DNA from: Pseudovibrio exalbescens
GTDB taxonomy: Bacteria > Pseudomonadota > Alphaproteobacteria > Rhizobiales > Stappiaceae
DNA: 64,000 bases
Assembly: GCF_028737195.1 (NCBI RefSeq)
Contig: NZ_JAQZAJ010000002.1
Location: 744,001-808,000, forward strand
Direction: 5' to 3'
Shown here: piece after piece, positions 3,972 through 20,678 of the stretch
Layout: each line of letters starts with the position of its first letter
Numbering within the stretch: position 1 is the first letter of the stretch
Notes under the pieces: model-generated
Told to the model about the DNA's origin: nothing
Database searches by the model: none
Seen by the model: only the letters and a program-made list of their open reading frames with translations
Program-made: the position numbers and the translations under genes

Positions 3972-4376
3972 TCACGCGTTTCTTGCATTCTTGCTGTTGG
4001 GTGCTCTGGTGATGAGATAAAAGCTTGTTCCCGCGAGAATGATTTCCGCGAGCAGGTAGAAGATCAGTAGTGGCTGGGGCCAGCCGTCGAGAAAAAGGCT
4101 CAACACTCTGCCTAATGCAATGCCAGTGACAAACACGAAGACACTCCACAGCGCAGGCATCCGCAGGTCGGCGCGTACGGCACCGGCCAGCCAAAAGATG
4201 ATCATGCCGAGGTACAGTCCCATGATCGCACGGAAGAGGTGCTGCATGGTTAAATCTGGGTCGCTGAGGCCGTAGAGCCAAGGCAGGCTCTTGTCCGGCA
4301 GCGCACCGTAGGAGAGCGCCACAGGCACAAGGCCGATGCCCATTGCCAGCAGGAACAGCCTCTGAGCCTTATCCAT
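3972..4376 (-). CDS. DUF4345-like small membrane protein
   Basis: A 134-residue integral membrane protein with about four hydrophobic segments: LFLLAMGIGLVPVALS, HLFRAIMGLYLGMIIFWLAG, LWSVFVFVTGIALG and LLIFYLLAEIILAGTS. The pattern, with R-A-I/M-G-L-Y early in helix 2, matches the DUF4345 family, whose function is unknown. The start was set at the ATG at 4376, which overlaps the last eight bases of the FGE gene and has GGGGA a few bases upstream; a TTG four codons earlier is possible. The overlap suggests translational coupling to the FGE. Confidence 0.7.
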   Translation of the reverse strand: MDKAQRLFLLAMGIGLVPVALSYGALPDKSLPWLYGLSDPDLTMQHLFRAIMGLYLGMIIFWLAGAVRADLRMPALWSVFVFVTGIALGRVLSLFLDGWPQPLLIFYLLAEIILAGTSFYLITRAPNSKNARNA

Positions 4377-5337
4377 CAGTGTCCCCAATGCTTTTTACGA
4401 CACGAAAGCCAATGTGCGCGGTACTGAAATCGCGCTCCAGGCTCTCGCGCGCGGCGACCCTGTATCTTTGGCAGTAGTCCTCGCTACAAAGAAACGAGCC
4501 GCCCTTGATCGTGAAACGCGGCACGGCGGGTGCGAATGGACTGTCGGTCCATTCCCAGACATTCCCAATCATGTCGTAGGCACCTGTCAGTCCCGGCTCA
4601 TAACAACCGACCGGCGCTGTCCCCGCGAAACCGTCCCGCCGGGAGTTGAGCACCGGAAAAAGGCCCGTCCAGATATTGGCACGGGCGCTGCCATCGGGCG
4701 CGCGGATGCCCGAATGCGGGTCCATCGGATCGAACAAACCCATGCTGGCCGCGTATTCCCATTCCACCTCAGTCGGAATACGCCCGCCCACCCAAGCCGC
4801 ATAAGCCTTGGCGTCATTCAGTGTGACATGCACGACAGGGTGCAGGTCGCGACCCACCAGGTCGGATCCTGCACCATCTGGCGTGCGCCACGTTGCGTCG
4901 GCGTCCAGCGACCACCAGGAAAGGAATACTTCGGGCGTATCACTTTCGCTGAACTGTGCAGAACCGCCATTGCGTTCAGCCTCGGTGACATAGCCTGTCT
5001 CAGCGACAAACGCTGCGAACTGGCTGTTCGTGACCTCGTGGGCCTGCAGGCGGAAAGGCGAAACAAGCACCTTCCGGGGCGGGCCCTCCTCGGGAAACAC
5101 AGGATCAACGCCCATGACGAATCCGCCGCCGGGGATTTCGACGAACTCACCAAGGTCGGCCTCGTTCAGGGAACACGCCAGTTCTGTTTGAGGTGATGAA
5201 ATGACATGCTGCGAAAGTCCCACGGCAGCGACCGCGACAACGGTCACTGCCAACGCACCTGCGCCGAGCGATAGAGGACGTTTATTGGGCAACTCAGCGC
5301 TCCGCGAGCAGTTCGAGGATGCGGTGAGCAGTCTCAT
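4369..5337 (-). CDS. Formylglycine-generating enzyme (FGE/SUMF1 family), membrane-anchored
   Basis: The 322-residue product has the FGE-sulfatase fold throughout: start IPGGGFVMG near residue 68, HEVTNSQFAAFV, GGRIPTEVEWEYAA, DMIGNVWEWT and the C-terminal GGSFLCSEDYCQRYR. Both cysteines that act in copper-dependent oxidation in this family are present (Cys284 and Cys289, spaced as human Cys336/Cys341), so a catalytically competent enzyme is likely rather than a degenerate PvdO/EgtB-like relative. Family role: oxidising the Cys of a C-x-P-x-R motif in sulfatases to formylglycine with O2. Residues 23-42 form one strong hydrophobic segment preceded by Asn-Lys-Arg, predicting an N-in/C-out anchor and an extracytoplasmic catalytic domain. 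The gene overlaps the preceding DJ-1 gene by 44 bp; a TTG at about 5292 would remove the overlap and keep the hydrophobic segment. Confidence 0.88.
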   Translation of the reverse strand: MRLLTASSNCSRSAELPNKRPLSLGAGALAVTVVAVAAVGLSQHVISSPQTELACSLNEADLGEFVEIPGGGFVMGVDPVFPEEGPPRKVLVSPFRLQAHEVTNSQFAAFVAETGYVTEAERNGGSAQFSESDTPEVFLSWWSLDADATWRTPDGAGSDLVGRDLHPVVHVTLNDAKAYAAWVGGRIPTEVEWEYAASMGLFDPMDPHSGIRAPDGSARANIWTGLFPVLNSRRDGFAGTAPVGCYEPGLTGAYDMIGNVWEWTDSPFAPAVPRFTIKGGSFLCSEDYCQRYRVAARESLERDFSTAHIGFRVVKSIGDTDG

Positions 5338-6118
5338 AGCCGCTGTTCTGGTTCTGGCCAGTCACCAGATTGCCGTCGACTACGGTGTGCGTCGCAAAGA
5401 AGTCGCGCCAGGCGGTTTCGGCCTCAAACACAGCGTTCATGGAACGCATTTCGCTCTCAGGGTGCAAAGGCGTGATTTCGATGCCCAGCTCCTTTATCTG
5501 TTTGTCGGTGACGCCTGTCACCCGGCGGCCTTCGATGAGGGGTGAGCCCTCTGTATTTTGAGCGTTCACCAGACCGAGCGCCCCATGGCAAACCGACCCA
5601 AGGACGGCACCTTGGGCGTTAGCCTTGGTAATGACTTGTGCAAGCTCATCGCTTTGCGCAAGGTCATAGGCCGCGCCCCAGCCACCAGCCAGGAAGATCA
5701 CGTCGTAGGCACTGGGATCGACTTCGGTGATGGGAAGAGAGTCCCGTAGCATCGCCATTGCCGCAGGATCCTTCTTGAAACGCAGGTCTTCGGGTGTTGC
5801 CAGCGGCCAACTCATCGACCACGGCTCGACCGGGATCTCCCCGCCCTTTATTGAGGCGATGTCGACATCCAGCCCGGCTTCGAGAAAGACGTAGTAGGGA
5901 ACCGTCATTTCCGATCCGAACACCCCGGTGGCTCGGCCCGTTTCGCCAAGTGTGTCATGGCTGGTCGTGACGATCAGTGCGCGATGTCCCGCCAGATCAA
6001 ACTCAGGGATTTCGTGGTGAGGGTGAAAGCCCATCGCTTTAAGCGTCGGCGGCAAGCCGAAATAGATGGCGACAGCTAACAGGGCGATGATGCCAAGGGA
6101 ATATCGAAGCCAAGACAT
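5294..6118 (-). CDS. Membrane-anchored DJ-1/PfpI family protein, copy 2
   Basis: The 274-residue product has an N-terminal membrane segment (residues 5-22) followed by a complete DJ-1/PfpI (type 1 glutamine amidotransferase-like) domain. Conserved points are the start of the domain ALIVTTSHDTLGETGR, KGGEIPVEP near residue 91, GGWGAAYDL near 145 and the nucleophile elbow GSVCHGALGL with Cys177 and His178. The usual G-G-H-G of Hsp31-like proteins is G-G-W-G here. Family members are glyoxalases, proteases or chaperones; the reaction is not predictable. A clear GGAG lies nine bases before the ATG. It is colinear, without gaps over the first 180 residues, with the product of 6755-7588, so the two are paralogues. 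Position between sulfatase and FGE suggests a role in the same envelope module. Confidence 0.82.
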   Translation of the reverse strand: MSWLRYSLGIIALLAVAIYFGLPPTLKAMGFHPHHEIPEFDLAGHRALIVTTSHDTLGETGRATGVFGSEMTVPYYVFLEAGLDVDIASIKGGEIPVEPWSMSWPLATPEDLRFKKDPAAMAMLRDSLPITEVDPSAYDVIFLAGGWGAAYDLAQSDELAQVITKANAQGAVLGSVCHGALGLVNAQNTEGSPLIEGRRVTGVTDKQIKELGIEITPLHPESEMRSMNAVFEAETAWRDFFATHTVVDGNLVTGQNQNSGYETAHRILELLAER

Positions 6119-6216
6119 TCAGATTTACTCCAAGTGAACGATCTACTAACAATTTTGGGGGACGAAGGGGCGGCCCTCTCCAATCCCACTCACACGAATG
6201 TCGCGACATTCGCGCG

Positions 6217-6723
6217 TCATTGAATGGCGTATTTCAGGGCTGCCAGCCCGGAGCCCAAACCGCCTGCGAACAGTGCCCCACCGAACGCAAGCCAACAACT
6301 ATGATTTATCACCCAGCCAACCCGTGCGCCGAGTACGATAAGGATGGCCACGCAAAACGCTTGGGACAGCATTGTCGCAGTTTGCATTGTCAGCCACTCC
6401 AGTCCTCCTGCGATGAACAGCGCCGTCGGCGCATTCGCGACGATCAGCATCGGGTGGTTGTTCGACCACGCGGATTGCACAGCCTTCAGAGTCAGCATCC
6501 GTTCGCCTGTCTCCATCGCATGAGACAGAAGTGCTGCGAAGGAGCGGACGAGTGTGACTGCAAGAACAGATCCAAACAGGACCAAGGCTGGCTCAAAAGG
6601 AGCCTCGGGCGTATCACCCAATGCCATGAGCAGGCTAAGCACCAAAATGGCACCGTAGATGAGGCCAAAGGCTCTTTTTTCTAACGGCTGCCAGCCCAAA
6701 TGGGCTGCGTGAGCGATGCGCAT
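6217..6723 (-). CDS. Small integral membrane protein of unknown function
   Basis: A 168-residue protein with about four membrane-spanning segments (FGLIYGAILVLSLLMAL, ALVLFGSVLAVTLVRSFAALL, MLIVANAPTALFIAGGLEWL and later FCVAILIVLGARVGWVI and AFGGALFAGGLGSGLAAL). I do not recognise the family. The start at 6723 was chosen because AGGAG lies eight bases upstream; the longer frame to 6813 would run into the preceding DJ-1 gene. It sits between the two DJ-1 paralogues in the co-directional sulfatase cluster and is likely co-transcribed with them. A His residue early in the protein and a lone Cys pair give no functional hint. Confidence 0.7.
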   Translation of the reverse strand: MRIAHAAHLGWQPLEKRAFGLIYGAILVLSLLMALGDTPEAPFEPALVLFGSVLAVTLVRSFAALLSHAMETGERMLTLKAVQSAWSNNHPMLIVANAPTALFIAGGLEWLTMQTATMLSQAFCVAILIVLGARVGWVINHSCWLAFGGALFAGGLGSGLAALKYAIQ

Positions 6724-6754
6724 TTCTTGGCTCCTGTGCCAGACCTGCTCGGGA

Positions 6755-7588
6755 TCAGACGTTGCGTTGCGTAGCCATCTTTTCGAGGATACGGTGCGCA
6801 GTCTCATAACCACTGTTCTGGTTTTGGCCGGTCACCAGATTGCCGTCGATCGAGGTGTGCGTGGCAAAAGGGTCACGGAATGCGTGCTGGCATTCGAAGA
6901 TCGCGCCAAGTTTACGCAGCTCTTCCTCGGGGTGCTTGGGTGTGACTGCGATGCCGAAGGTATTGATCTGACCGTTCGTTACGCCGGTGACGCGGCGGCC
7001 TTTGACCAACGGTTCGCCATCGAGACCTTTAGCGCCGCACAGACCAAGGGCGCCGTGGCAGACAGAGCCAAGGATCTTGCCTGCGGCATTGGCGCGGGTG
7101 ATGAAATCAGCCAGTTCCTCGCTTTGCATCAAGTCATAGGCCGCACCCCAGCCTCCGGCCATGAAGATTACGTCGTAGTCATTTGGATCCAGATCGGCGA
7201 CGGCTTTGGAGTTCTTGAGGTCGTGCATCGCCTTGCTGTCGGCCATGAAACGCTTGTCGTCGTGACAGGCAAGTGGCCACGTCCAGGACCAGGGCTGGAT
7301 CGGGATTTCACCGCCTTTGGGCGAGGCCATATCGACCTCCATGCCTGCATTGACGAACGCATAGTATGGCACCGTGAACTCGGATCCGAAGGCCCCGGTG
7401 GGCTTTGTGGTTGGATCCAGGCGGTTGTGGTTGGTGCAGATCACGAGCGCTCGGCGGCCCTGCATGTCAAAATCCGGGATGGTATAGTGCCTATGAATGC
7501 CCAGAAGACGCAGGAATGCGGGCAGATAGAGATACGTGAGAATGGCCAGCAGGGCCAAGACAACAAGGGCGACAACGATGAAGGTCAT
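6755..7588 (-). CDS. Membrane-anchored DJ-1/PfpI family protein, copy 1
   Basis: A 277-residue protein with an N-terminal membrane anchor (VVALVVLALLAILTYLYL) and a DJ-1/PfpI domain: domain start RRALVICTNHNRLDPT, KGGEIPIQPW at 91, GGWGAAYDL at 145, nucleophile elbow GSVCHGALGL with Cys177, then GRRVTGVTN and a C-terminal NLVTGQNQNSGYETAHRI shared almost exactly with copy 2. The start at 7588 has CGGAG seven bases upstream; the frame is open further upstream but that extension overlaps the sulfatase end and has no ribosome site. The membrane segment with a short cytoplasmic N-terminus suggests the domain faces the periplasm, though a reverse topology cannot be excluded. Function within the family is unresolved. 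Probably the product of a tandem duplication, with the 6217 gene between the copies. Confidence 0.82.
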   Translation of the reverse strand: MTFIVVALVVLALLAILTYLYLPAFLRLLGIHRHYTIPDFDMQGRRALVICTNHNRLDPTTKPTGAFGSEFTVPYYAFVNAGMEVDMASPKGGEIPIQPWSWTWPLACHDDKRFMADSKAMHDLKNSKAVADLDPNDYDVIFMAGGWGAAYDLMQSEELADFITRANAAGKILGSVCHGALGLCGAKGLDGEPLVKGRRVTGVTNGQINTFGIAVTPKHPEEELRKLGAIFECQHAFRDPFATHTSIDGNLVTGQNQNSGYETAHRILEKMATQRNV

Positions 7589-7655
7589 GCCAGTTCTCCG
7601 AATTGCGGTGTTTGAAAGTGCGCCTCTTGGGCTGGCGCACTGATTGTAAGTTGGA

Positions 7656-9431
7656 TTAGTGGGCTGAACGGCGGACAAGCATCCGGACAAGGCGGAAGAG
7701 CGCGTAAACGCTGATCAACAGCATCAACACCAGCCCGGCTAGATACGGCCAGTATTTGCTGACGGTCTTTTCCAGGAGGTTCGAGAAGAGCTGCGCCTCG
7801 GCATAGTCCTCTTGTCCCAGCTCGAACACGCCAACATCTGCCACGTAGGCTTCGTATTCGGACTTAAGCTCCGCGAAGAGTTCCGGGTTCTCGCCGGACA
7901 GGTCGGTGGTTTCACCCGGATCGACGGATAAATCGAAAAGTCGCCAGGTAAAATCGCCACGCGGCAACGCGGTGCGCACCAGCTTCCAGTTGCCGCGATA
8001 AAGCGCGGCATTCCCGCTTACCTCTCCTGCGAAGCTTTCATCGGCGCCGCGGGTTTCGGTCGTCTGACCGGAAAGCACCGGAAGGATGCTCTTGCCGTAA
8101 AGAGTGCCTGGGTCATACGCCACACCTGCAGCTTCAAGTAGGGTCGGCATCAGGTCGGACACGTGCACAGGGGCTTGCTGGATTCCGCTTGCCGCAACAC
8201 CGGCGCCCGCAATGACAAGCGGCACACGAAGTCCGCCTTCTGAGGAGTAGAACTTGTACAGGTTGAACGGTGAGGCCTCAACAGAGGCCCATTCGGGCCC
8301 GATCGCGGTCAGGCTGCCCGGAAGGCCCATGTTTTCGGGGGAGGTGTCATAGCCTTCAAGACGATGGATCCCGTTCAACAGAAGATCGAACACTGGGTTC
8401 TCAAGGGACGTCACCCCCGATTCAGCCCCGTTGTCAGACGTGATGACGACAATTGTGTTGTCCAGCTGTCCGTTGGCCTCCAGATGATCCAGCAGGCGCC
8501 CGATATGGAAATCGGCTGACTCGATCATGGCGGCATGGACCTGCATGGCGCGCGCGGCCTCTGCCTTTTCTGCTGCAGAGAGGTCATTCCAGGCGCGGTG
8601 GTCCTCATGAACCGGGGCCAAGGTCGTGGTTTCTGGCACGAGGCCGAGATCGATGACCCGTTCCAGACGTTCTTTGCGCATCACGTCCCATCCGGCGTCG
8701 AACACTCCGTCATAACGTTCGATGAACTCGAGCGGGGCCTGAATCGGGATGTGAGCGGCCTGAAGAGACAGGAAGCCGAAGAACGGTTGATCCGCATCGC
8801 CTTCGTCGATGTAGCGGATCATCTGGTCAACGAGATTGCGGGAGGAATAGAAATCCTCGGGCAGACGGACGGGTTTGCCGTCCTCGAACCAAGGGACCTC
8901 CGGGTAACCTGGCAGATAGTGGCGGTGGTCGTAATTGCTGCCGCCCGTCGAGTCCATCACGTAAGATCGGTCAAAGCCGAAATGGTTGGGCAGGTTCTTG
9001 CCCTTTGCTCCGATGCCCCATTTCCCGGTCACGTAAGTTTGGTATCCAGCTTCTGACAAGATCGTCGCAATGGTCGCCTGATCTTTGTCCCAAACCATGG
9101 AATAGCCGGGCAGCTCTCGCTGCTCGGGCGTCACCGTTTCAACCAGCGTGCCCATGCCCGTCTGGTGATTGTCTTGGCCGGTCATCAGCATGGCCCGGCT
9201 TGGCCCGCAGAACGGGGAGGAGTAATAGCGCGAAAAGAGTGTGCCCGACTGCGCCAACCTGTCGATGTTTGGGGTACGCGCATCGCTGCCATAGGCACCG
9301 AAACCGGTAAAACCGACATCGTCAAACAGAACGACTAAGATATTCGGTCGCGCATCCTGGCCAAATGCCGGGAGTGCCGTTGCGAGGCAAAGACTCAGCG
9401 CACCGAGCACGGCGCGGGTAAAGTTCGTCAT
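7656..9431 (-). CDS. Exported arylsulfatase with C-terminal membrane anchor
   Basis: A 591-residue sulfatase of the alkaline-phosphatase superfamily. Residues 1-24 are a Sec-type signal peptide ending ALPAFGQ. Catalytic features: metal ligands in NILVVLFDDVG (Asp37, Asp38), the formylglycine motif C-G-P-S-R with Cys75 and the following MLMTGQ, VTGKWG, and VITSDNGAE, which carries further metal ligands. The family hydrolyses sulfate esters after the motif cysteine has been oxidised to formylglycine. The C-terminus has one membrane segment (YLAGLVLMLLISVYALF) and a basic tail, so the enzyme is probably exported and anchored at its end. I chose the ATG at 9431 (GAGAAG upstream, clean signal peptide); an ATG at 9497 overlapping the stop of the previous gene as ATGA is also in frame. 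Partner genes: the FGE at 4369-5337 and its neighbours. Confidence 0.9.
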   Translation of the reverse strand: MTNFTRAVLGALSLCLATALPAFGQDARPNILVVLFDDVGFTGFGAYGSDARTPNIDRLAQSGTLFSRYYSSPFCGPSRAMLMTGQDNHQTGMGTLVETVTPEQRELPGYSMVWDKDQATIATILSEAGYQTYVTGKWGIGAKGKNLPNHFGFDRSYVMDSTGGSNYDHRHYLPGYPEVPWFEDGKPVRLPEDFYSSRNLVDQMIRYIDEGDADQPFFGFLSLQAAHIPIQAPLEFIERYDGVFDAGWDVMRKERLERVIDLGLVPETTTLAPVHEDHRAWNDLSAAEKAEAARAMQVHAAMIESADFHIGRLLDHLEANGQLDNTIVVITSDNGAESGVTSLENPVFDLLLNGIHRLEGYDTSPENMGLPGSLTAIGPEWASVEASPFNLYKFYSSEGGLRVPLVIAGAGVAASGIQQAPVHVSDLMPTLLEAAGVAYDPGTLYGKSILPVLSGQTTETRGADESFAGEVSGNAALYRGNWKLVRTALPRGDFTWRLFDLSVDPGETTDLSGENPELFAELKSEYEAYVADVGVFELGQEDYAEAQLFSNLLEKTVSKYWPYLAGLVLMLLISVYALFRLVRMLVRRSAH

Positions 9432-12300: not shown

Positions 12301-13073
12301 CGATGATTGCTCCGTCCTCGTCGCGACAATGATAGCTTGCATCAGGGGCTTGGGCAACGGCCCGAAACTATCGGTTTACGGGCGTCAGTACACCCTCATC
12401 TGGTAAGATGCGGCGCGTAATCAAGCGAAACCATTGGAGTTTTGTCGTTCTCGCGTGGTGCTTGATGGCCTGCCGGGCGAAGCGTTTAAGTCATCGGTCG
12501 TCCGCATCATTCCCGGCCGGGCGACTGGGAGTTTTTGTGGTTGCCGCGGCACTTGCAGGGTTCTCCCCTGCGACAAGGGCGGGGAAAAGGACGCCCGCGA
12601 TCGTCAGTCGTCACCTCCGACTTACTATTTGACACAAGATACCGGATATGGTGACGGCAGGTTGGGTTGCCTCTTGGGAAATCAGCTCATTTTTGTCTCA
12701 GGCCTTGATAGGCACTGATTGCGTGCCAGGCCGCATGGGGCTGGCCTACTTGCTCTCGACATCTCTATGACCGCTGTTTTGCGCGGGCACGGGCGGTAGG
12801 TGAGTTCATCCGAAATATGCCTAAATGATTGTATGACTGCACTAATTAGGAGTGATTGCGCCTTGTACACTTTCAACTGCCATTAGACGAAAAAATTGAT
12901 TTAACAAATTCGAATAATTTCACTAAAATTTTAATCATCTGACACAAAGGTTTCGGAAGTTGTTTCGAAGTCGCTAAGGCGCGAACTAGGTATTTTGAAT
13001 GCTTTACCTTTGGAGCGTGTTAGTAAATATGCAAAACGCATCTTTGAAACTGGCCGTTTTAGGAGAGGGTGAG
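12301..13073. other. Intergenic region, G+C-rich then A+T-rich
   Basis: About 770 bp between the divergently transcribed AraC-type gene and the repeat-protein gene. The left part (to about 12,820) is G+C-rich with only unconvincing ORFs; the right 200 bp, especially 12,890-12,960, is strongly A+T-rich and should hold the promoter of the gene at 13074. No conserved element was recognised. The abrupt composition change marks the right edge of the sulfatase cluster. Confidence 0.5.
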
Positions 13074-14198
13074 ATGGCTCATATTATTAACAGTAGGAAT
13101 AGATCCGTAGAAACTGCTGAATTTATTTACGAAATTGATTCAGATGGGAACATTGTGGACTTCACCTCAGGCAGCTTTGGCGGGCTTCATTTCAATACAG
13201 AACTGCACAAAGTCGTTGGTGGCACCTTTAATTTCCGTGTTGATTTGCAGCCACTGCTGGCTGAACTGGTTACAGGTTCTGGCCGGACGACAACAGACCC
13301 ACTGGATCAAGTAGGTATTGAAGGTGTCGAGTTGGTCAGCCTTGATGGGGACAGCATGACGGTCTCAATTCGTGGCTGGGATGGCACTAAAGACACCGTG
13401 ATTTTCCAGGGGTCTGGTGTTGAGGCCATCATTGAGGATGTTGCTGGCAGCCGCATCGATGTAAAAGGTTGGAACTCCGAGTTTGCAGTTTTTGACTACC
13501 AGAACGAAAACTCAATGAACTTGGGCGGCACTTGGGGCGAGCTGAAAAACGTTGTTGGGCACAACATCTCTGTCGGTGGACGCGATGGCAACGAAGTTGT
13601 TGAGCTGTTTCAGGAGTTGGTCACCGGCTCCGGTCGCACGACCAAAGATGCCAGCAAGATCGCAGGCATCAATGGGGTTGAGCTTTTAAGCCTAACCGAC
13701 GATGGATACACAATCAAAATTGATGGATGGGACAACGGCATCAATGCCATGTCTGATACAATCACGTTCTCCAATCTAGACGCCGACTTCTTTGCTGAGG
13801 CTGGTTTCAAGAACCGCATTGACGTGAAGGGCTGGAACTCCGAATTTGCGATCTTCGATTATGAGTCCACCAAGTCCATGAACCTCGGCGGCACTTGGGG
13901 GGAACTGCGTGAACTGGTGGGGCACTCCATCAAGACCACGGGCCGGGATGGCGATGAAGTTGCCGAAATCCTTGATGAGCTCATCAACGGCGATGGCATC
14001 AAGGGAGTAAAGCTCCTCGGACTGGATGAAGACAGCTTCTCAATCCAGATCAACGGCTGGGGCTTTGATCAGCGCTCTGAAGACCGTGGTTGGAACAAGA
14101 TGGTCGACACAATCCTCTTCACAAACGTTGAAGACGTAATCGATGAAGTTCTTACCAGTCCGGCGCTCACTTCGGATGATGGATACAACATCGCCTGA
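13074..14198 (+). CDS. Internally repeated orphan protein (about three ~110-residue repeats)
   Basis: I do not recognise this 374-residue acidic protein. Its middle and C-terminal parts are two well-conserved repeats, each with ELVTGSGRTT, an I-x-GVELLSL segment, an I-x-GWD segment, then RIDVKGWNSEFA-(V/I)-FDY, SMNLGGTWGEL and VGH. The N-terminal ~100 residues look like a decayed third copy (FIYEIDSDGNIVDF, FGGLHF, VVGGTFNF), and the C-terminal part a shortened fourth. No signal peptide, transmembrane segment or RTX nonapeptide is visible. The ATG at 13074 is chosen because AGGAGAGGGTGAG directly precedes it; the frame also runs up to 12999. It is a single-gene unit next to A+T-rich DNA, ending 19 bp before a strong terminator. 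A secreted or surface repeat protein is one guess; there is no evidence of function. Confidence 0.75.
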   Translation: MAHIINSRNRSVETAEFIYEIDSDGNIVDFTSGSFGGLHFNTELHKVVGGTFNFRVDLQPLLAELVTGSGRTTTDPLDQVGIEGVELVSLDGDSMTVSIRGWDGTKDTVIFQGSGVEAIIEDVAGSRIDVKGWNSEFAVFDYQNENSMNLGGTWGELKNVVGHNISVGGRDGNEVVELFQELVTGSGRTTKDASKIAGINGVELLSLTDDGYTIKIDGWDNGINAMSDTITFSNLDADFFAEAGFKNRIDVKGWNSEFAIFDYESTKSMNLGGTWGELRELVGHSIKTTGRDGDEVAEILDELINGDGIKGVKLLGLDEDSFSIQINGWGFDQRSEDRGWNKMVDTILFTNVEDVIDEVLTSPALTSDDGYNIA

Positions 14199-18486: not shown

Positions 18487-19731
18487 TTAGCCCTTGGTTT
18501 TGTTGGGCTGCCGCCTCAGCAGCTCACGAATCTGCGGGGCTGACGCACCCTGTGCCTGAAGCATCGCAATTGTTCTGAGCCTTGCTCCCGCATGTTTGAA
18601 AAACATTTTGAAGCTTGGACAAAAGTAGTTCAGAGCATAACCACCGTCTCTGTCAGGCATGAAACGATGCTTGGGGCATCCCCCGTTACACGCCGAGACG
18701 AAAGAGCAGATTCGGCAATCAGTGGGCAACCCGGTTTGCTTGTTCTCCCCAAATCTGACTTGTGGTGCGCTGGTCGCCAGAGCGTCCAGCGGTGTTTCAA
18801 GAATGTTGCCCAACAGGTGCGTCGGGTAGACGAAGTGATCGCAGGAATAGAGGTCGCCATTGTGTTCCATGGCCAGTGCCTGGCCGCAGGTGGGAGCAAA
18901 CGTGCAAAGCCATGAAGGCATGCCAATCATTGTGCCCATATGCACGTCAAACATCTGGACAGAAACCTCACCAATGTCGTTGGTGGCCCAGTCATCAAAG
19001 ATGGCACACAGGAAGCGGCCATAAGCCTTTGGCGAGGCGCTCCATTTTGCCAGGTTCTTGGCTGTTCTGTGGCTTGGAAGGGCAAGCGATGCCGCTTCTT
19101 CAACGGCAGGGATGAACTGCAAGTGACGAAACCCTGCATCTTTCAAGAAGCGATAAACTTCCCGTGGGCGTCGCACATTGCCTTGGTGTACCACGGTCAG
19201 TGCGTTAACCGCCACTTCATGGCGGGCAAGGCGTTCTGCCGCTTCCATGACGCGCTTGAAGCTGGGGCGTTTGGCGCGGTCAACGCGGTAGGCGTCATGG
19301 ATGGGCTCTGGTCCATCAATGCTGAGACCAATCAGGAAGCGGTGCTCGGCAAAGAATCGAGTCCAGTCATCATCCAGAAGCGTGCCATTGGTTTGAAATG
19401 CATTCTGAATAGTTACGTGGTCCGGCGCGTAGCGCATCTGCAACGCCACTACCTTTCGATAGAAAGCCAATCCTGAAAGAGCAGGCTCGCCACCTTGCCA
19501 GTTGAACCAGATCTCACGGAGACCGAGCGCAGCTTGTGATGCAATGAAGCCCGAGACATAGTGCTCCAACACCCCGTCGCTCATGGCAAAGCGCTTGCTA
19601 TCCGCATAAAGCTCGTTCTTCTCGAGGTAAAAACAGTAGCCACAGTTGAGGTTGCACTGCGGGCCATTGGGTTTTGTCATCACCTGAAATGGCCAGCGGT
19701 GCTGAGTTAAACTGTTTTGCTTTGAGTGCAT
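18487..19731 (-). CDS. Anaerobic sulfatase maturase (radical SAM, anSME-like)
   Basis: The 414-residue product carries the radical-SAM cluster motif C-N-L-N-C-G-Y-C (Cys26, Cys30, Cys33) followed by FYLEK, the anSME-typical WQGGEPAL, and a SPASM-type C-terminal region with auxiliary-cluster cysteines (LCTFAPTCG, YSCDHFVYP, CRICSFVSACNGGCPKHRF). Family role: oxygen-independent oxidation of the sulfatase motif Cys or Ser to formylglycine in the cytosol, using S-adenosylmethionine. Its ATG (19731) overlaps the stop of the PfkB kinase gene as ATGA, so the two are translationally coupled. No sulfatase lies beside it; the nearest is at 7656-9431. The SPASM protein family also contains peptide maturases, but the anSME call is favoured by WQGGEP and overall length. 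Confidence 0.87.
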   Translation of the reverse strand: MHSKQNSLTQHRWPFQVMTKPNGPQCNLNCGYCFYLEKNELYADSKRFAMSDGVLEHYVSGFIASQAALGLREIWFNWQGGEPALSGLAFYRKVVALQMRYAPDHVTIQNAFQTNGTLLDDDWTRFFAEHRFLIGLSIDGPEPIHDAYRVDRAKRPSFKRVMEAAERLARHEVAVNALTVVHQGNVRRPREVYRFLKDAGFRHLQFIPAVEEAASLALPSHRTAKNLAKWSASPKAYGRFLCAIFDDWATNDIGEVSVQMFDVHMGTMIGMPSWLCTFAPTCGQALAMEHNGDLYSCDHFVYPTHLLGNILETPLDALATSAPQVRFGENKQTGLPTDCRICSFVSACNGGCPKHRFMPDRDGGYALNYFCPSFKMFFKHAGARLRTIAMLQAQGASAPQIRELLRRQPNKTKG

Positions 19732-20678
19732 CATACAGGTGCGAGGCACACCGTCTGCGCCAGTTCCTCAACGCGCGCCACCTCCGGCAAGCGCGGTCCT
19801 ACCTCGCCGAGTGCGCCGAGTGAGAAGCCCGTTGAGATCCGTGCCATCTCCCTCAGGTCGAAGCCGCGCACATGGGCGTGCACAAGGCCAGCTACCATGG
19901 CATCCCCAGCCCCCACCGTACTGGCGACATAGGGCGCAGCAGCAATGGCATGCACTGCCCCTTCCTCACTTACAAACACGGCACCGTCGCCGCCCATTGA
20001 AATGACGGCAAGACCAATGCCTTCCTGCACCAACTCACGCCCAGCAGCAGCGACCTCAACGGATGTCTCCAACCTTCCACCGAGGATGTAACGCAGCTCC
20101 TCCACGTTGGGTTTGACGACGTAAGGTTTTGCAGACAGGGCAACCCGCAAAGGCAAACCGCTTGTGTCTACCACCGTTTTGCAGCCGGCCATTCTGGCCC
20201 ATTTGATAAAGCGCAGATAGCTGTCTTCCGGCAAGCCTTTGGGCAAGCTGCCAGCAAGCACCAACCAATCAAGCCCTTCTGCTGCAGAGACAATGAGTTG
20301 TCGTTCCACTGCTTCAAGGTCTGCTGCCGTCGCCGCCGGCCCCGGGAAGTTCAGGTCGGTAATTCGGTTGGTGTCGTGATCGACGATTTTGATGTTTGTG
20401 CGCGTTGCGCCGCTAACACGACTGAAATCGTCGACGATGCCTAACTCGCTAAAATGACGCGTGAAAAGCTTGTCGTTGTCCTCTCCCAATAGGCCGAGAA
20501 CGGTCACTTTGTGCTTGTAGTGCGCCAGAAAGGAGGCGACGTTCACGCCTTTGCCACCGGCATCCGTTCGGGAGCTGATGGCACGATTGACCGTATCAAG
20601 TGAAAAGCCGGGGGCCAGGACGGTCTGGTCAACAGCCGGGTTCAGTGTGACTGTTGCAATGCGGGGAGCTGGGCTCAT
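19731..20678 (-). CDS. PfkB-family sugar kinase (1-phosphofructokinase-like)
   Basis: The 315-residue kinase begins PRIATVTLNPAVDQT, contains DAGGKGVNVASFLA and the catalytic TVGAGDAMVAGL with the anion-hole G-A-G-D. These match the 1-phosphofructokinase/tagatose-6-phosphate kinase branch of PfkB, which phosphorylates fructose-1-phosphate or related sugars with ATP. The start at 20678 has GAGGA nine bases upstream. No fru phosphotransferase genes are nearby, so the physiological sugar is uncertain. Coupled by ATGA to the radical-SAM gene downstream, an unusual partnership. Confidence 0.85.
   Translation of the reverse strand: MSPAPRIATVTLNPAVDQTVLAPGFSLDTVNRAISSRTDAGGKGVNVASFLAHYKHKVTVLGLLGEDNDKLFTRHFSELGIVDDFSRVSGATRTNIKIVDHDTNRITDLNFPGPAATAADLEAVERQLIVSAAEGLDWLVLAGSLPKGLPEDSYLRFIKWARMAGCKTVVDTSGLPLRVALSAKPYVVKPNVEELRYILGGRLETSVEVAAAGRELVQEGIGLAVISMGGDGAVFVSEEGAVHAIAAAPYVASTVGAGDAMVAGLVHAHVRGFDLREMARISTGFSLGALGEVGPRLPEVARVEELAQTVCLAPV

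Follow-up and report, generated by a model that had tools for sequence, protein, structure and literature searches.

A formylglycine-generating enzyme predicted to act outside the cytoplasm on an adjoining exported sulfatase in Pseudovibrio exalbescens

In which compartment does a bacterial formylglycine-generating enzyme (FGE) meet its sulfatase? The question is raised by a 64,000-nucleotide stretch of the genome of Pseudovibrio exalbescens (positions 744,001 to 808,000 of contig NZ_JAQZAJ010000002.1; the whole stretch is called the window below), where the gene of an FGE with a hydrophobic N-terminus lies close to that of a sulfatase with a signal peptide. FGE is a copper enzyme, placed in the endoplasmic reticulum (ER) of eukaryotes and in the cytosol of prokaryotes by the passages available from Holder 2015 (PMC4505483). 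The original prediction, made from the letters of the window, put the catalytic domain of this FGE on the outside of the inner membrane. Our results suggest that the exported enzyme matures the neighbouring sulfatase outside the cytoplasm, a reading to which we give a probability of about 0.72.

The FGE gene (4369..5292, minus strand) encodes 307 amino acids from its likely start, TTG 5292. Its product scores 211.3 bits with PF03781 (cut-off 23.3; E 2.5e-62), and the closest solved sequences are FGEs and human SUMF1, the human FGE matching at E 1.4e-56. The protein has four cysteines, at residues 40, 230, 269 and 274. The last two form the catalytic pair in GGSFLCSEDYC (4471..4488, minus strand), and the C....C that follows GGS is invariant in both alignments and across 45 aligned sequences. 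These are the catalytic cysteines that had been described as C284 and C289, in the numbering from ATG 5337. An AlphaFold model built with 45 sequences has a pLDDT of 83.8 and a pTM of 0.82, with residues 1-40 poorly defined (block means 51-62).

The position of the start codon matters, because the hydrophobic segment is retained only by some of the candidates. The open reading frame from ATG (4369-5337, minus strand, 322 amino acids) would share 44 bases with the upstream gene. TTG 5292 stands one base past the TGA of that gene and is preceded by GCGGAG; the two closest orthologous loci (L174 and L175) have a GTG at the matching distance from an identical GCGGA, and downstream of it they too encode basic residues and then a hydrophobic stretch. 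Two observations count against TTG 5292: our automatic start picker chose GTG 5247, from which only the last 11 hydrophobic residues remain and the basic n-region is lost, and a start at GTG 5223 would cut away most of the segment. Neither GTG is backed by the two orthologues. TTG 5292 is therefore likely to be the start, as the best supported of the candidates, and with it the protein keeps a segment at residues 7-25 (5218..5274, minus strand), directly after Asn-Lys-Arg as originally described, with a mean Kyte-Doolittle hydropathy (KD) of 2.13 over 19 residues (2.21 in L174, 1.89 in L175). A start downstream of the segment, one of the conditions named as refuting the original prediction, is disfavoured by a start position that is conserved in the orthologues. 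By the positive-inside rule, basic residues before such a segment point to a domain on the outside. The segment may be an anchor or a signal peptide, and could be cleaved.

The sulfatase gene (7656..9431, minus strand, 591 amino acids) matches PF00884 with 203.8 bits (E 4.8e-60). Its product, which begins MTNFTRAVLGALSLCLATALPAFGQ, was expected to be exported, and all the elements of that claim were found: a signal peptide at residues 1-25 (9357..9431, minus strand), also called exported by our hydrophobicity rule; the motif CGPSR at residues 75-79 (9195..9209, minus strand), whose Cys75 is the predicted formylglycine target; and a C-terminal hydrophobic anchor at residues 564-582 (7686..7742, minus strand; mean KD 2.37), present in both orthologues. 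The PF00884 match and the CxPxR motif assign the protein, by prediction, to the formylglycine (S1) type. Its nearest solved sequence is 1hdh, an arylsulfatase of P. aeruginosa (366.9 bits over residues 49-559).

The two genes lie on one strand with 2.4 kb between them, and with matches of such significance to both families we do not attribute their pairing to chance. They belong to a minus-strand run of six genes from 9431 to 3972, in the order sulfatase, DJ-1/PfpI-like protein, membrane protein, DJ-1/PfpI-like protein, FGE and DUF4345 protein. Among 87 genomes of the family, the window's own included, close orthologues (83% and 81%) occur in two others, which belong to another genus. Both orthologous loci preserve the order and strand of the six genes, and in both the FGE has its hydrophobic segment, the sulfatase its anchor and each DJ-1/PfpI protein its N-terminal segment. 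The FGE family, the catalytic cysteines and the segment are read directly from the sequence, and so are the sulfatase's CGPSR motif, signal peptide and anchor and the conservation of the operon.

We infer the catalytic activity of the FGE, its action on this sulfatase and the timing of the conversion. The FGE would face the periplasm, either held by its N-terminal signal segment or released from it, and would turn Cys75 of the adjoining sulfatase, exported by the secretory (Sec) route, into formylglycine. Conversion would take place as the sulfatase chain leaves the translocon, ahead of folding, and the sulfatase would then remain tethered by its C-terminal anchor.

Such an arrangement should leave a trace in other genomes. 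We surveyed a first sample of 80 named loci, 56 stretches of other genomes and the window, which gave 121 FGEs, and a second sample of 64 new stretches, analysed with the rule unchanged, which gave 64 FGEs. To be included, an FGE had to show the cysteine pattern and reach 200 bits with a profile built from alignment A1; rows below that score or lacking the pattern were left out, as were sulfatases lacking the motif or showing a late profile start. Proteins were called exported if, between a start codon and the domain, they had 12 consecutive residues without D, E, K or R and with a mean KD of at least 1.9. In E. coli, the strict form of the rule, applied to annotated starts with classes assigned from product names, called 0 of 42 cytosolic proteins and 9 of 11 membrane or exported proteins.

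Export-type N-termini with intact cysteines were found in 68 of the 121 FGEs of the first sample and 27 of the 64 of the second. These numbers rule out a pair unique to this genome; what had been put forward as one unusual pair belongs to a widespread class, and the proposed search for homologues with the same N-terminal segment found export-type N-termini to be common in both samples. Among the named loci, exported FGEs occur in Cyanobacteria (L038), Planctomycetota (L110), Verrucomicrobiota (L061, L072), Acidobacteriota (L085) and Bacteroidota (e.g. L050, L053, L068, many with lipoprotein-like signals), as well as in Afipia (L044), Cupriavidus (L069) and Pandoraea (L088). The FGEs inspected from Streptomyces (L047, L048), Paenibacillus (L041, L042), Peribacillus (L039) and Roseobacter (L057) have no N-terminal segment.

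The class of the FGE matches that of its neighbour. Each FGE was paired with the nearest sulfatase within 5 kb, which need not be its substrate, and near-identical pairs (such as L182/L194, L149/L150 and L153/L154) were counted separately. In the first sample, the 37 sulfatases beside exported FGEs comprised 34 with a Sec signal, two with none and one with a twin-arginine translocation (Tat) signal, and the 34 beside FGEs without the segment comprised 25 with none, six Tat and three Sec (Fisher p 2.3e-13 for the 71 pairs; 3.1e-11 at 3 kb and 8.2e-12 at 8 kb). A revision by eye, made after the table had been seen, relabelled the FGE of L037 and the sulfatases of L060, L148 and L166 and dropped L089 and L163; it left 38 exported FGEs with Sec sulfatases, 30 pairs with neither and a single exception (L168) among 69. 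The 42 pairs of the second sample gave p 0.0039; in these, 16 exported FGEs adjoined 12 Sec, three unsignalled and one Tat sulfatase, and 26 FGEs without the segment adjoined 14 unsignalled, five Tat and seven Sec sulfatases. By eye, the exported FGEs of this sample had 18 Sec neighbours and one Tat neighbour (L241, 4 kb away), and those without the segment had eight Tat, eight unsignalled and seven Sec neighbours.

A strict two-way rule, by which an FGE would be exported if and only if its sulfatase is a Sec substrate, was rejected because, in the second sample, seven of 26 FGEs with no signal called by the rule stand beside a Sec sulfatase. Three of these seven (L246, L236, L261) look exported by eye, and the rule also missed three further Sec sulfatases beside FGEs without the segment (L215, L207, L208). 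What survives, on these sequence-based calls, is a one-way pattern: exported FGEs appear almost always to adjoin Sec sulfatases, and unsignalled FGEs to do so in a fair share of cases. An enzyme restricted to the far side of the cytoplasmic membrane would produce such a pattern, which still allows sulfatases elsewhere to be matured before export.

Sulfatases with twin-arginine-like signals were also seen beside unsignalled FGEs (L160, L196, L197, L058, L198, L206, L204, L211, L225 and L232). Among the six Tat calls of the first sample beside FGEs without the segment, that of L089 looks false, and L058, L198, L160, L196 and L197 have RR motifs. Their association with unsignalled FGEs is as expected if folding and modification precede export.

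The exported FGEs include a group marked by two further cysteines. In the window, Cys40 (5173..5175, minus strand) lies in the linker ahead of the domain and Cys230 (4603..4605, minus strand) in APVGCYEP, and the two co-occur in exported FGEs. A cysteine at the Cys230 site is present in 23 of the 121 FGEs of the first sample, of which 21, all with the linker cysteine, are exported; the two called cytosolic are L037, which has the linker cysteine and, on inspection by eye, a signal, and L163, which has a masked N-terminus. The second sample has 21 such FGEs among 64. The rule called 19 of them exported and found the linker cysteine in 18, the nineteenth (L228) having it by eye, and the two called cytosolic (L246, L261) show both signal and linker cysteine by eye. 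Both cysteines thus occur in 21/68 and 18/27 exported FGEs and in 1/53 and 2/37 called cytosolic, the last three all with a signal by eye. Since 47 of 68 and 8 of 27 exported FGEs lack Cys230, the pair marks one lineage and not the whole exported class, and since most of its bearers fall in the window's set in the first-sample tree, it does not represent many independent events. Cys40 and Cys230 perhaps form a disulfide, which would need an oxidising compartment. Together, the basic n-region, the paired cysteines and the compartment match point to a periplasmic FGE, and we consider it very probable that the domain lies outside the cytoplasm. The predicted topology and the FGE/sulfatase pairing first proposed for this locus are in this way supported, and extended beyond it, by comparative evidence.

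The unsignalled FGEs have features of their own. A Cys-Cys N-terminal motif (for example CCAP or CCTP) occurs in 27/53 and 5/37 of them, against 1/68 and 0/27 exported FGEs, its carriers including L009, L039, L041, L045, L057 and L129; a link to cytosolic copper loading is possible, as a guess. In the first sample, a histidine follows the first catalytic cysteine in 32 of 53 unsignalled versus 5 of 68 exported FGEs, where the residue at this position is Ala in 29, Ser in 19, Asn in 8, and others.

Several points weigh against maturation of the neighbouring sulfatase by the exported FGE. Thresholds, start picker and rule were tuned while the first sample was in view. FGEs without the segment do adjoin Sec sulfatases (3/34 and 7/26), and the sulfatase nearest to the exported FGE of L241 is a Tat one. 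Shared ancestry was considered with quick trees of the first sample. The FGE tree, with four changes of the export label, yields three independent pairs and a non-significant result (p 0.5). The sulfatase tree speaks in favour of the match: it has 12 changes in Sec export and 10 independent pairs, of which 6.4 show a change of FGE class in the same direction, 0.0 in the opposite one and 3.6 none (sign test, median p 0.031, with a range of 0.016-0.063); once rows had been relabelled, six of six followed (p 0.031). Finally, the window itself holds a cytosolic maturase of another kind, anSME (18487..19749, minus strand; TIGR03942 462 bits, cut-off 349.45), a radical-SAM enzyme lacking an export signal, which might mature both exported sulfatases of the genome before export.

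The last point underlies the strongest competing explanation: anSME would modify the sulfatase before translocation, leaving the exported FGE superfluous, devoted to other substrates or active only when oxygen is present. Maturases of the radical-SAM type reside in the cytosol and take Cys as their target, and the match is above the cut-off. Yet anSME lies outside the operon, 10 kb away and with no adjoining sulfatase gene, whereas the FGE is within the operon in three genomes. The genome as a whole has two matches to PF03781, three to PF00884 and one above the cut-off to TIGR03942. The second FGE (C21, starting MHVSLKTPCPGGARRPGNIVWALCLYTLLATTPALASEA) carries a signal, as does its adjoining sulfatase (motif CTAGR, starting MRTRLIRLLAAGAFAASLVVSAAAQ); the original prediction took account of neither this second pair nor anSME. 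The third sulfatase (C23, CSPAR), which lacks both a signal and an adjoining FGE, itself needs a cytosolic maturase, anSME being the only one found in the genome without an export signal. With both FGEs and their linked sulfatases bearing signals and the cytosolic sulfatase left to anSME, each sulfatase would have a maturase in its own compartment. We regard maturation of the window's sulfatase by anSME as unlikely.

The FGE-like protein might instead be exported but not generate formylglycine, being an enzyme or structural protein of the same fold such as PvdO, EgtB or PorK/GldK. The fold has been reused in several exported proteins, and there are weak NCBIfam matches to EgtB (TIGR03440, 102.4 bits), GldK (75.4) and PvdO (NF051459, 53.8). 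These scores are far under the respective cut-offs of 360, 350 and 500 bits, and membership of the three families was rejected; the protein has both catalytic cysteines, FGEs as its closest solved sequences and a sulfatase in its operon, which makes this alternative very improbable. The least probable explanation, a cytoplasmic FGE domain (through N-out insertion of the segment or a start at GTG 5223) acting on the sulfatase before export, would agree with the published cytosolic placement of prokaryotic FGE and with the FGEs lacking the segment that adjoin Sec sulfatases, but not with the basic residues ahead of the segment in the window and its orthologues, the conserved start position and the Cys40/Cys230 pair.

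A broader model can be drawn, on which we are evenly divided. Bacteria would have two compartment-matched formylglycine pathways: the action of exported FGEs would be restricted to the outside and to Sec substrates, which pass through the membrane unfolded, and unsignalled FGEs would act inside, on cytosolic sulfatases, on Tat sulfatases folded before export and on some Sec sulfatases. The exported branch would span several phyla, one of its lineages marked by a stabilising Cys40-Cys230 disulfide, and would correspond in bacteria to the ER pathway. Aldehyde tags are made with FGE, a copper oxidase. Were a large share of bacterial FGEs to work in the envelope, the activation of exported sulfatases would become directly testable in common laboratory bacteria, as would the source of copper and oxygen for FGE and the coupling of Sec and Tat export to modification, and the presence in some genomes of a cytosolic anSME next to exported FGEs would be explained.

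The operon has four further genes. The first DJ-1/PfpI-like protein (6755..7588, minus strand; PF01965 56.3 bits), whose start was picked by comparison with L174, and the second (5294..6118, minus strand; 58 bits) have N-terminal hydrophobic segments with KD of 2.87 and 2.05. Between them lies a membrane protein with no Pfam match (6217..6813, minus strand), and the run ends with the DUF4345 membrane protein (3972..4376, minus strand; PF14248 82.7 bits), whose ATG overlaps the FGE stop. Homologues of the DJ-1/PfpI, membrane-protein or DUF4345 genes occur in 2 of 136 scanned loci, the same two orthologous loci, so they are not general partners of exported FGEs. Elsewhere in the window, a 399-residue protein (12999-14198, plus strand) contains repeated stretches such as DVKGWNSEFAVFDY and MNLGGTWGEL.

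Within a body of texts that leaves most subscription papers, reviews included, out of reach, a literature search returned no account of an exported bacterial FGE, and a search by name for FGE or formylglycine in the periplasm no paper. Exported sulfatases, FGE counts or maturation are treated in PMC6388578, PMC9723792, PMC10880615, PMC8746622, PMC11500405 and PMC10154612, and FGE export is absent from the passages available. The family is known, and in the literature found, as far as those passages go, its location here is not described for bacteria.

Comparison with known systems shows what is shared and what differs. The FGEs of Streptomyces coelicolor and Mycobacterium tuberculosis resemble the window's FGE in family, in the catalytic C....C and in their genomic link to sulfatases, but they are reportedly cytosolic, whereas the window's FGE has an N-terminal hydrophobic segment and so departs from proteins without an export signal. 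anSME also makes formylglycine in sulfatases, but it is an unrelated radical-SAM enzyme, cytosolic and encoded by a separate gene of the window. PvdO is an exported protein of the FGE fold; its solved sequence aligns to the window's FGE at residues 151-250 only, short of the catalytic cysteines. Compared with 1hdh, the window's sulfatase has two additions, namely its signal peptide and its C-terminal anchor. A parallel to what we propose is SUMF1, which has a signal sequence and acts on sulfatases after translocation; it does so in the ER, where, in the source passages available, cysteines of an N-terminal extension serve retention, whereas the window's FGE has a short linker with one cysteine.

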